Part shown: positions 24,689-26,733 of the stretch, piece after piece | How the letters are laid out: each line of letters starts with the position of its first letter | Numbering within the stretch: position 1 is the stretch's first letter | NCBI GenBank assembly: GCA_024640225.1 | Contig: JAHEFK010000015.1 | Location: 1-62,375 of the forward strand | Source of the DNA: Bacteroidota bacterium | GTDB lineage: Bacteria > Bacteroidota > Bacteroidia > Chitinophagales > Chitinophagaceae | DNA length: 62,375 nucleotides | Reading direction: 5' to 3' | Made by a program: the position numbers and the translations under genes | Notes under the pieces: generated by a model | The model's database searches: none | Told to the model about the DNA's origin: nothing | What the model saw: only the letters and a program-made list of their open reading frames with translations

Positions 24689-24883
24689 TTATTTAGTAGC
24701 AGCTGGAGCTGTAGTATCAGCAGCAGCAGGAGCTGTAGTGTCAGCAGCAGGAGCAGCAGTTGTGTCAACAGCTGGAGCCATAGCAGCAGTATCTACTGGA
24801 GTTTCTTCAGTTTTAGTTTCACCGCAAGAAGCAGCAAACATACCTAATGCAAGAGCAAAAGTCGCGAATTTTACAAATTTCAT
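24689..24883 (-). CDS. Small Ala/Thr/Pro-rich lipoprotein
   Basis: 64-aa precursor with a lipoprotein signal (lipobox A-A-S-C, Cys20). The mature 45 residues are low-complexity: repeated DTTAPAA-type units with acidic residues and almost no hydrophobics, as in a flexible envelope spacer. The coding sequence shows an imperfect ~24-base tandem repeat (24699-24780). No domain is recognised. Similar small repetitive lipoproteins are common in Bacteroidota, and function is unknown. The 223-base gap upstream is very AT-rich and shared with the divergent sigma factor gene. Confidence 0.75.
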   Translation of the reverse strand: MKFVKFATFALALGMFAASCGETKTEETPVDTAAMAPAVDTTAAPAADTTAPAAADTTAPAATK

Positions 24884-25106
24884 AATGTTTGTTTTTAAAA
24901 GTTAATTTTAAATTTATCCGCAAAACAATAAAAGGTAACCCAATAATAAAAGAAAATATTTATATTTATTTTATTATAACATTTAAATAGTTGATATACA
25001 TATAATTTTATAAAATGATATAATTGAAAAAAAGTACACGAATTTATTTTTTAAAGACTTTTGGTTACTTTTAGTCGATTTTAGTATTAATTAAATATAG
25101 AAGAGC
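24884..25106. other. AT-rich divergent intergenic region
   Basis: The gap between the small lipoprotein and the ECF sigma gene is about 80% A+T. TACTTTTA at 25062-25069 is a possible -7 box for the sigma factor, differing from TAnnTTTG in the last base. I find no stable hairpin or RNA gene. Confidence 0.4.
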
Positions 25107-25664
25107 TTGAATACAGAGTTTGAAATTATTGCAGCATTAGCTGATGGTAAAGAGTGGGCTACTAAGTTAGTTTACGAGTCTAATGCATCTATTGTTATTA
25201 ACGCACTGAAATTAAAAGGTGCAGCACAGGAAGATGCAGAAGATATCTATCAAGAAGCAATGTTAATATTGTTTAATAAAGCACAAGAGGAGGCGTTTAG
25301 GTTTACGTGTAAGATTGGCACCTATTTATATGCGATTAGCAATAATTTATGGTTGAAGCGATTTGACAAAAACCGGCGATCACCTATTTTGCAAACAGAT
25401 TCAGAGCAATTGATGGTGTATGCTGAAAGTGCCTTAGATAGCGACATGGAATTTTTTGCAGAGAAAGAGCAACAGTTTTTAAAGTTAAGAACCGCTATGC
25501 AGCAATTAGGCGATCCTTGTGCTAAACTGTTAAATAACTTCTATAAAAAAGAAATGACAATGCAAGAGATAGCCCATGCTTTTGGGTATACCAATGCAGA
25601 AAATGCAAAATCTCAAAAATATAAATGCTTGGCTCGTTTAAAGAAAATTTACTCGGACCTATAA
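25107..25664 (+). CDS. ECF-type RNA polymerase sigma factor
   Basis: 185-aa sigma-70 family factor. Region 2 is visible in the N-terminal half (AEDIYQEAMLILFNKAQ, then GTYLYAISNNLWLKRFDK). Region 4 with its helix-turn-helix is near the end (LNNFYKKEMTMQEIAHAFGYTNAENAKSQKYKCLARLKK). Translation probably starts at TTG 25107, preceded by the SD-like AGAAGAG; no upstream ATG exists in frame. The next gene, 10 bases later, encodes a membrane protein with an anti-sigma-like N-terminus, the usual partner arrangement. Confidence 0.88.
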   Translation: MNTEFEIIAALADGKEWATKLVYESNASIVINALKLKGAAQEDAEDIYQEAMLILFNKAQEEAFRFTCKIGTYLYAISNNLWLKRFDKNRRSPILQTDSEQLMVYAESALDSDMEFFAEKEQQFLKLRTAMQQLGDPCAKLLNNFYKKEMTMQEIAHAFGYTNAENAKSQKYKCLARLKKIYSDL

Positions 25665-25674
25665 ATAAAATTAC

Positions 25675-26733
25675 ATGGAAAAGAATATTTGGGAATGGTC
25701 GGAATTATATGCATCTAATGAATTATCATCAGATGAGTTAATCTATTTAAATAATCGATTACAAAATGATGATGCGTTTAAAATAGCTTTTGATGATCAA
25801 GTTGCTTTTATTTCCAACCTGCAATCGATGCACAAACAAGATGCATTTGCCGCACAACTAAAAGCCCTATCTTCAAAGAAAGCAAATAACACCAAAACGC
25901 TTTCCAAGATCGTTCATTTGTCTATTAATCAATGGAAAGTAGCTGCAATGGCTGCTTCTGTTGCCTTACTTACTTCTTTGCTTACCTTATTCCTTGTAAA
26001 GCAAGAAAAGCCTAGTAAACAATATAGCATGTTGCGCCGAGAGATTGAAACCATTAAAAAATCTCAACGTCAACTAATTAATACCCTTCAAAGCAATGAC
26101 CAGAGCGATTTGCAGCCGGGCTCTTATACAGGTACCGCATTTGCTATTAGTAAAGAAGGTTATTTTATAACCAATTATCACGTTACCGAAGGTGCCGATT
26201 CGTTATACTTACAAACCCAATCGGGCAATTATCAAAAGGCGATTGTAGTTGCTTACGATAAAGTAAGTGATTTGGCCTTATTAAAAGTATTGAAAGCATC
26301 AAAACAAGCGGTGGATGTGCCTTACGCTTTTGCAAAATCTAAAATAAATATAGGTTCTTCTATTTTTACCCTTGGTTTTCCCAACGAAGAAATTGTTTAT
26401 AAAGAAGGCTATATTTCGGGTAAAAATGGTTTTGAAGGGGATACCATGCAATATCGATTAGAAATGATGGCGCAGCCCGGACAAAGCGGTTCGCCTATAA
26501 TTGATTCAAAAGGAACAATCATTGGTATCATTGCCGGAAAAGATACGGAATTGGATGGTACTACTTATGCAGTAAGCTCATCGGCATTAATGCGATTGAT
26601 AGCCTCTCTTCCAAGTGAGGTGCATGTTAATCTCCCTAAAATCAATAAGCTTAAAAAATTATCTCGCGAAGAACAGATTAAAAAAATCCAAGCTTGCGTG
26701 GGTGTATTACAAGTTTATAAAAGCAAATCTTAA
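25675..26733 (+). CDS. Anti-sigma-like / transmembrane / trypsin-like protease fusion
   Basis: 352-aa protein with three parts. Residues 1-86 are cytosolic and resemble anti-sigma domains of Bacteroidota ECF partners (LYASNELSSDELIYLNNRLQ, then NDDAF). Residues 88-109 form one membrane helix. Residues 150-312 form a periplasmic chymotrypsin-fold protease of the HtrA type with complete triad: His169 (TNYHV), Asp199 (VSDLALLKV), Ser271 (PGQSGSP). There is no PDZ domain; about 40 extra residues end the chain. It follows the ECF gene by 10 bases. A single-chain envelope sensor that holds the sigma factor and carries its own protease is the likely role, by inference. Confidence 0.8.
   Translation: MEKNIWEWSELYASNELSSDELIYLNNRLQNDDAFKIAFDDQVAFISNLQSMHKQDAFAAQLKALSSKKANNTKTLSKIVHLSINQWKVAAMAASVALLTSLLTLFLVKQEKPSKQYSMLRREIETIKKSQRQLINTLQSNDQSDLQPGSYTGTAFAISKEGYFITNYHVTEGADSLYLQTQSGNYQKAIVVAYDKVSDLALLKVLKASKQAVDVPYAFAKSKINIGSSIFTLGFPNEEIVYKEGYISGKNGFEGDTMQYRLEMMAQPGQSGSPIIDSKGTIIGIIAGKDTELDGTTYAVSSSALMRLIASLPSEVHVNLPKINKLKKLSREEQIKKIQACVGVLQVYKSKS

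Follow-up and report, generated by a model that had tools for sequence, protein, structure and literature searches.

An ECF sigma factor gene paired with an anti-sigma-like/HtrA-like protease fusion in Chitinophagaceae and further families of Bacteroidia: a candidate single-chain regulator

The locus described here raises the question of how an ECF sigma factor is controlled when the gene that follows it joins an anti-sigma-like domain, a membrane helix and an HtrA-like protease in one chain. It lies in a window (the whole stretch of DNA analysed, 62,375 nt) that is contig 33 of a genome of 1.85 Mb, 96.5% complete. The closest named relatives are Chitinophagaceae, e.g. Taibaiella, Flavipsychrobacter and Edaphocola, and MAGs filed under other labels are also close. 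Both open reading frames are exactly those of the initial annotation, with the sigma gene first and the fusion following on the same strand, 10 nt from sigma stop to fusion start (Table 1). Between 23950 and 28092 the gene order is an rsmI-like gene, the sigma-fusion pair, and tatC-like and rpiB-like genes; of the 80 named loci, 38 have tatC less than 800 nt 3' of the fusion. The reading put forward, with moderate confidence, is that the fusion is an anti-sigma factor and a site-1 protease in a single chain, which would initiate its own release by regulated intramembrane proteolysis and drive its own operon and a mini-lipoprotein gene.

Table 1. Features of the sigma-fusion locus, with positions in the window
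Feature	Position	Strand	Basis
Divergent promoter-motif copy, GGTTAC-N15-GGATAA	24914..24940	-	Motif search
64-aa lipoprotein, candidate target of sigma	24689..24883	-	ORF behind divergent motif
Candidate ECF promoter of sigma-fusion operon, GGTTAC-N15-GTATTA	25063..25089	+	Motif search
ECF sigma factor gene, 185 aa, TTG start	25107..25664	+	ORF, family models, fold matches
Anti-sigma-like domain/membrane helix/HtrA-like protease fusion, 352 aa	25675..26733	+	ORF, domain matches, structure model
Cytosolic anti-sigma-like domain, residues 1-86	25675..25932	+	Model; weak family matches in relatives
Predicted membrane helix, residues 85-107, low confidence	25927..25995	+	Structure model
Ala93-Ala94, inner end of membrane helix; candidate site-2 cut and ClpXP degron	25951..25956	+	Conservation
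Predicted periplasmic coil helix, residues 115-139, low confidence	26017..26091	+	Structure model
HtrA-type protease domain, residues 149-316	26119..26622	+	Pfam, fold matches, conservation
Conserved C-terminal tail, residues 317-352	26623..26730	+	Model, conservation; beyond HtrA-aligned stretch

The product of the first gene is an ECF sigma factor. It passes the NCBIfam sigma70-ECF model with 54.4 bits (cut-off 42.9), matches Pfam Sigma70_r2 with 27.9 bits (cut-off 24) and scores 11.8 bits against Sigma70_r4, under the cut-off of 24.1; ECF sigma structures are among its best fold matches (Z about 10-11.5). In region 4 the residues Tyr161, Asn163, Ala167, Lys168, Gln170 to Cys174, Arg177 and Leu178 are the same in all 178 non-redundant members; a region so nearly invariant is expected if a single motif is read in all members. 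The structure model of the whole fusion protein of the window, built with 77 sequences, has a mean pLDDT of 77.8 and a pTM of 0.58. It places helices of the N-domain at residues 5-13, 19-31 and 33-70, and the linker and membrane helix (residues 86-148) are modelled at low confidence (pLDDT <50). The single membrane helix of the initial annotation, placed there at 88-109, is predicted in this low-confidence stretch with slightly shifted ends.

The periplasmic part of the fusion has the fold of an HtrA protease and an intact catalytic triad. Pfam Trypsin_2 matches with 74.8 bits over residues 153-285, Foldseek on the protease gave E values down to 1.1e-11, and the best 50 fold matches listed have Z values of 18.7-21.2. 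The assignment to S1C proteases was upheld by this search, with DegS and human HtrA1 among the best matches and HtrA structures aligning typically over about residues 145-316. Pfam and NCBIfam rows naming viral proteases were counted as general trypsin-fold similarity. The triad codons were confirmed as His169 (CAC at 26179), Asp199 (GAT at 26269) and Ser271 (AGC at 26485); the three residues are kept in 60/60 sequences and, together with the GxSG context, are invariant in 178/178 non-redundant members. The protease has the trypsin-like HtrA fold with its triad and lacks the C-terminal PDZ of the S1C family: as had been claimed, no PDZ model is found among the seven Pfam matches of the fusion at E<=10. 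The protease is instead followed by a tail, modelled as a helix (331-339) and a strand (342-348). Gln334 in the tail is conserved in 176 of 178 members, and members belonging to other families within the class have the tail too. DegS is described as gated by its own PDZ domain (PMC8103513), and the tail is a candidate for the gate in place of a PDZ. Other families have longer open frames (about 390-770 codons) in which protease and tail recur and the anti-sigma-like domain is missing (e.g. G098:C33:17406-18110 and G528:C29:24483-25154); protease plus tail is thus a separate module.

The intact triad bears on the origin of the site-1 cut. The fusion could serve as the anti-sigma factor and leave this cut to another periplasmic protease, with its own HtrA domain degrading damaged envelope proteins or only sensing them, so that quality control and signalling would share one anchor. 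The genome does encode a second, stronger Trypsin_2 protein (469 codons, C31, 129.3 bits), and some anti-sigma factors are described as being cut by separate site-1 proteases (PMC7593790). A division of labour of this kind is nevertheless considered rather unlikely, since the triad is kept in all 178 members on the chain of the presumed substrate itself and the stretch that joins helix and protease has sufficient length to be reached; both points are suggestive only.

The pairing of the two genes is nearly without exception. In 253 of the 259 loci fetched, the ECF gene is directly upstream of the fusion and on its strand: in 214/219 loci of a Chitinophagaceae-centred set (L312 of which is from another family of the order) and in 39/40 of those taken from nine other families in the class. 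The 219 loci comprise family-centred sets of 59, 80 named and 80 more, with some genomes in two sets; of the class-wide loci 40 of 42 were fetched. In all six exceptions (L081, L154, L161, L173, L174 and L328) the contig breaks off within 125 nt. In the relatives search 60/60 same-family genomes, counting that of the window, have a full-length fusion, the copy at L081 being cut by the contig end. The order search gave a full-length fusion in 133/133 same-family genomes, with G114 the only one of the other 263 genomes to have it. A class-wide sample of 345 genomes gave full-length or nearly full-length fusions in 8/8 same-family genomes and in 42/337 others, these from nine further families. 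One paralogue, the second copy in genome G027 (L094:4700-5767), was excluded from the 259 loci: a signal peptide replaces its N-domain, protease and tail are kept, and no ECF match is present within its 10.8 kb. This single case goes with the view that the N-domain and the ECF gene belong together. The initial annotation had named homologues lacking the ECF neighbour as a finding that would weaken its model, and had proposed a survey of gene order in relatives; the survey found the pairing kept, and the one copy without an ECF neighbour is also without the N-domain and is therefore not the fusion.

The N-domain very probably acts as an anti-sigma domain. It shares with class I anti-sigma factors (ASDI; RseA, RskA, ChrR, RsiW) the form of an N-terminal cytosolic helical domain, as well as the position beside an ECF gene (253/259 loci). 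Helix 1 has an acidic residue at position 10 in 177/178 members, which resembles the helix-1 acidic residue of ASDI domains such as RseA D11 (PMC7406223). The domain differs from ASDI in that its third helix is modelled as long, with no separate helix 4, and in that its family matches are weak. The helices are seen in the model of the whole fusion and in a model of the sigma factor and residues 1-88 as a single chain, the latter taken from a relative 94% identical by reading sigma and N-domain through the stop codon, which shows three N-domain helices and has a pLDDT of 86.8 and a pTM of 0.81, with no control chain. An Arg partner for residue 10, after the pair RseA D11/sigma-E R178, was dropped as a candidate, the residues failing to align by hand count.

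The family search of the N-domain, which the initial annotation had proposed for residues 1-90, gave no Pfam or NCBIfam anti-sigma family for the protein of the window, but weak anti-sigma matches for a minority of relatives. The NCBIfam model 'anti-sigma factor' matches 10/59 full-length members (best E 2.2e-6) and 6/71 N-domains alone (best E 1.7e-4), RskA_N matches 3/71 N-domains (best E 0.0037) and zf-HC2 8/71 (best E 0.013); unrelated families, hemerythrin and ribosomal L23, match the N-domains of relatives about as weakly. Nine relatives' N-domains scanned singly gave no anti-sigma family at E<=0.1, and the best 60 of the 129 rows from an N-domain profile search of solved structures contain no anti-sigma chain. 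Matches to thymidylate synthase and the like were set aside as chance. With no family match of its own for the domain, its naming leaned on the other evidence. A similar N-domain pattern was seen elsewhere in the same genome (G000 contig 35, L180:1414-2302), where another ECF gene precedes one for a 111-aa protein that has a membrane helix but no periplasmic domain (NCBIfam anti-sigma, E 0.074).

The predicted contact of the N-domain with the sigma factor is partly upheld, by the confident single-chain model but not by coevolution. The coevolution input was 178 non-redundant pairs (effective 153.5, 544 columns) and is underpowered; the top coupling was 5.9 s.d. for sigma and N-domain vs 6.5 s.d. 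for the sigma-protease control, which leaves the contact unsupported by this test, and couplings above 4 s.d. made up 0.190% and 0.199%, respectively, in the same underpowered comparison. The fold of the N-domain was hardly probed by the whole-chain fold lists, which were filled by sigma or by protease matches. Foldseek on the chain of sigma and N-domain gave no match at E<=0.001; in its rows, sigma factors bound to anti-sigma factors show an rmsd of about 10-17 vs about 20-25 for those in RNA polymerase, a hint only.

If the N-domain did not bind the sigma factor, the pair would merely be co-transcribed and the fusion would be a membrane protease in the regulon of the sigma factor. The coevolution result and the missing family match of the window's N-domain would fit such a case. 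It is considered very unlikely, however, since order and adjacency are invariable across ten families besides that of the window, the structure model of sigma and N-domain is confident and anti-sigma families match weakly, and the paralogue without the N-domain is also without the sigma neighbour. Sigma binding by the N-domain is thus predicted from the pairing, the structure model and the weak profile matches.

Among known systems, the locus resembles the sigma-E/RseA/DegS/RseP system of E. coli (AlgU/MucA/AlgW in Pseudomonas) in having an ECF sigma factor, a predicted membrane-bound anti-sigma factor and a candidate HtrA-type site-1 protease, in the alignment of the protease domain with DegS over about 145-316, and in the presence of an M50 site-2 protease gene in the genome. 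It differs from that system in that the anti-sigma-like domain and the protease are in one chain, whereas RseA and DegS are two proteins. Unlike DegS, the fusion has its conserved helix-plus-strand tail after the protease and no PDZ, and it scores 55.0 and 41.6 bits against the DegS equivalog models, below the cut-offs of 422.95 and 408. The candidate partner promoter motif, GGTTAC-N15-GTATTA, also sets it apart from the sigma-E system. The best NCBIfam score of the fusion is that of the MarP model, at 73.7 bits (under the cut-off of 250). MarP (Rv3671c) is likewise a PDZ-less, membrane-anchored, HtrA-like protease, but it is described with four predicted membrane helices (PMC4992679), vs one predicted in the fusion. 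Autocleavage of MarP is reported in the same source (PMC4992679).

The nearest precedent is RsgI9 of Clostridium thermocellum (SigI/RsgI), described as an anti-sigma factor with an S1C-type domain across the membrane (PMC12203970). It differs in having a SigI-type sigma factor and its own autocleaving periplasmic domain, whereas the partner of the fusion is the adjacent ECF sigma factor; PMC12203970 describes the S1C domain of RsgI9 as polysaccharide-binding and its downstream SigI as not known. By analogy, the S1C-like domain of the fusion could be a ligand-binding sensor and not a protease, with a separate event freeing the sigma factor. The description of the S1C peptidase-like domain of RsgI9 as cellulose-binding beside a separate autocleaving periplasmic domain (PMC12203970) would agree with this, and the solved RsgI9 domain (7sjy) matches the window protein by sequence with E 5.2e-7. 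A domain used for binding alone should have lost catalytic residues in one lineage or another, and the retention of triad and GxSG in all 178 members makes a pure sensor most improbable. No paper on an ECF-paired anti-sigma/HtrA fusion was found in the open-licence literature, and the main ECF reclassification may already list the family; the fusion is regarded as a new variant, and no first sighting is claimed.

In the proposed single-chain cascade, a site-1 cut would have to be followed by a cut in the membrane, and the predicted membrane helix contains a conserved pair of small residues at its inner end, Ala93 being Ala in 177/178 and Ala94 in 177/178 non-redundant members. In E. coli, RseA exposes a ClpXP signal after the RseP cut, as RsgI does. 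In Clostridium thermocellum RsgI, XAA motifs of the membrane helix are described as becoming ClpXP signals after the RseP cut (PMC12203970). Ala93-Ala94 is accordingly a candidate site-2 cut and ClpXP degron by analogy with the RsgI factors and RseA; the pair could alternatively be used for helix packing. That the released N-domain would stay on the sigma factor and be needed for its activity (pro-sigma, as FoxR-type), with no removal by ClpXP, is the least probable course. Such N-domain activity is described for some iron-signalling anti-sigma factors (PMC7593790), but the near-invariant Ala93-Ala94 would fit an XAA-type degron as in RsgI factors (PMC12203970).

A common motif is located upstream of the sigma gene and in a divergent copy at the same locus. 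GGTTAC is present upstream of sigma in 71/76 named loci (1.5 expected from shuffles) and GGGTTAC in 67/76 (0.1 expected). In 61 of the 71 GGTTAC loci G-K-A-T-W-A follows after 15 nt and in one after 16 nt; the second box was not matched by the regular expression in the remaining nine. In the genome of the window the strict motif occurs at two sites only, both at the sigma locus, and the reversed pattern also occurs twice; a looser motif gave 3 matches vs 15 for the reversed pattern. Since the reversed counts are no lower in this genome, the promoter argument is drawn from the place of the sites and not from their number. In 60 family genomes a strict pattern gave 81 matches in 49 genomes and its reverse none; of the 81, 25 precede the sigma gene, 37 are divergent copies at that locus, 18 are at other places and one is in a genome without a mapped fusion. 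GGTTAC-N15-GTATTA is therefore a candidate for the motif read by the sigma factor of the window. In many relatives the annotated GTG start of sigma is located a few nt past the -10-like box, which suggests that the sigma mRNA is leaderless or nearly so in these organisms; in the window the gap from the end of this box to the sigma start is 17 nt.

The divergent motif precedes a gene for a small lipoprotein. It was found in 89 of 127 loci with 500 nt or more of upstream sequence, from the window and the family sets and counting duplicates, and the first open reading frame behind it encodes a short lipobox protein in 89/89; class-wide, it was found in 24/39 loci, again with a short lipobox protein behind it in 24/24. 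As a lipobox frame stands behind the divergent motif in every such locus, the sigma factor, the fusion and the mini-lipoprotein look like a single module. The lipoprotein of the window has a lipobox ending at Cys20, a disordered remainder rich in A, T, P and D and a C-terminal Lys, and gave no Pfam match. The 80 distinct mini-lipoproteins of the family set have mature parts of 37-94 residues (median 50), which are rich in A, T, P and D and have almost no hydrophobic residues beyond Ala and Val; the last residue is Lys, Arg or His in 75 of the 80. The 18 motif sites elsewhere include four before further mini-lipoproteins, four before various other genes and, at the end of a contig, one before an ECF gene. 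Five more, in other genomes (L217, L219, L221, L222 and L228), precede a protein of 96-118 aa; the one tested matched AMPK1_CBM with 33.9 bits (cut-off 26.8) and resembles the glycogen-binding domain of AMP-activated kinase. The last four (L214, L216, L226 and L227) precede an exported protein of about 145 aa, of which the one tested had no Pfam match.

The proposed cascade is drawn from the anti-sigma domain and site-1-type protease on one chain, the pair Ala93-Ala94, and the one M50 protease and one ClpP match of the genome. At rest, the cytosolic residues 1-86 would hold the sigma factor. An envelope signal would switch on the periplasmic HtrA-type domain, which, having no PDZ, would need another gate: the conserved C-terminal helix and strand, the coil, or oligomerisation. 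We infer that the protease would then cut the linker in the periplasm (about residues 108-148), in its own copy or in a neighbouring one, the single M50 site-2 protease would cut within the membrane helix near Ala93-Ala94, and ClpXP would clear the freed anti-sigma piece. The free sigma factor would use GGTTAC-N15-GTATTA promoters to produce more of the sigma-fusion pair and the small disordered lipoprotein. The observed parts of this scheme are the pairing of the genes, the protease with its fold and triad, the motif before both transcription units and the M50 and ClpP genes; sigma binding is predicted, and the remaining steps are proposed.

A bolder version of the single-chain cascade is regarded as unlikely. 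The HtrA domain would itself act as the site-1 trigger, with the C-terminal strand as its gate in place of a PDZ, and the mini-lipoprotein would be not just a product but the ligand or test substrate of a single-chain envelope alarm widespread in Bacteroidia. The mini-lipoprotein would need acylation and transport to the outer membrane, and when sorting fails its disordered, basic-ended tail would reach the protease. The circuit, if so built, would survey how lipoproteins are sorted and act back on the reporter that it produces.

Class I anti-sigma domains are described near only 6% of Bacteroidetes ECF sigma factors vs 32% overall, and other modes of control are suspected for them (PMC7406223); the sigma-fusion pair is a candidate for filling part of this gap in Bacteroidetes ECF control. 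The promoter motif provides a predicted target set, headed by a family of mini-lipoproteins of unknown function, and sigma factor, fusion and lipoprotein would together form a compact alarm for cell-envelope damage. If the proposed mechanism holds, the sensor protease and the anti-sigma factor, separate in the textbook system, would be joined in a single molecule in much of the class Bacteroidia, and the cascade would be open to study with two genes.
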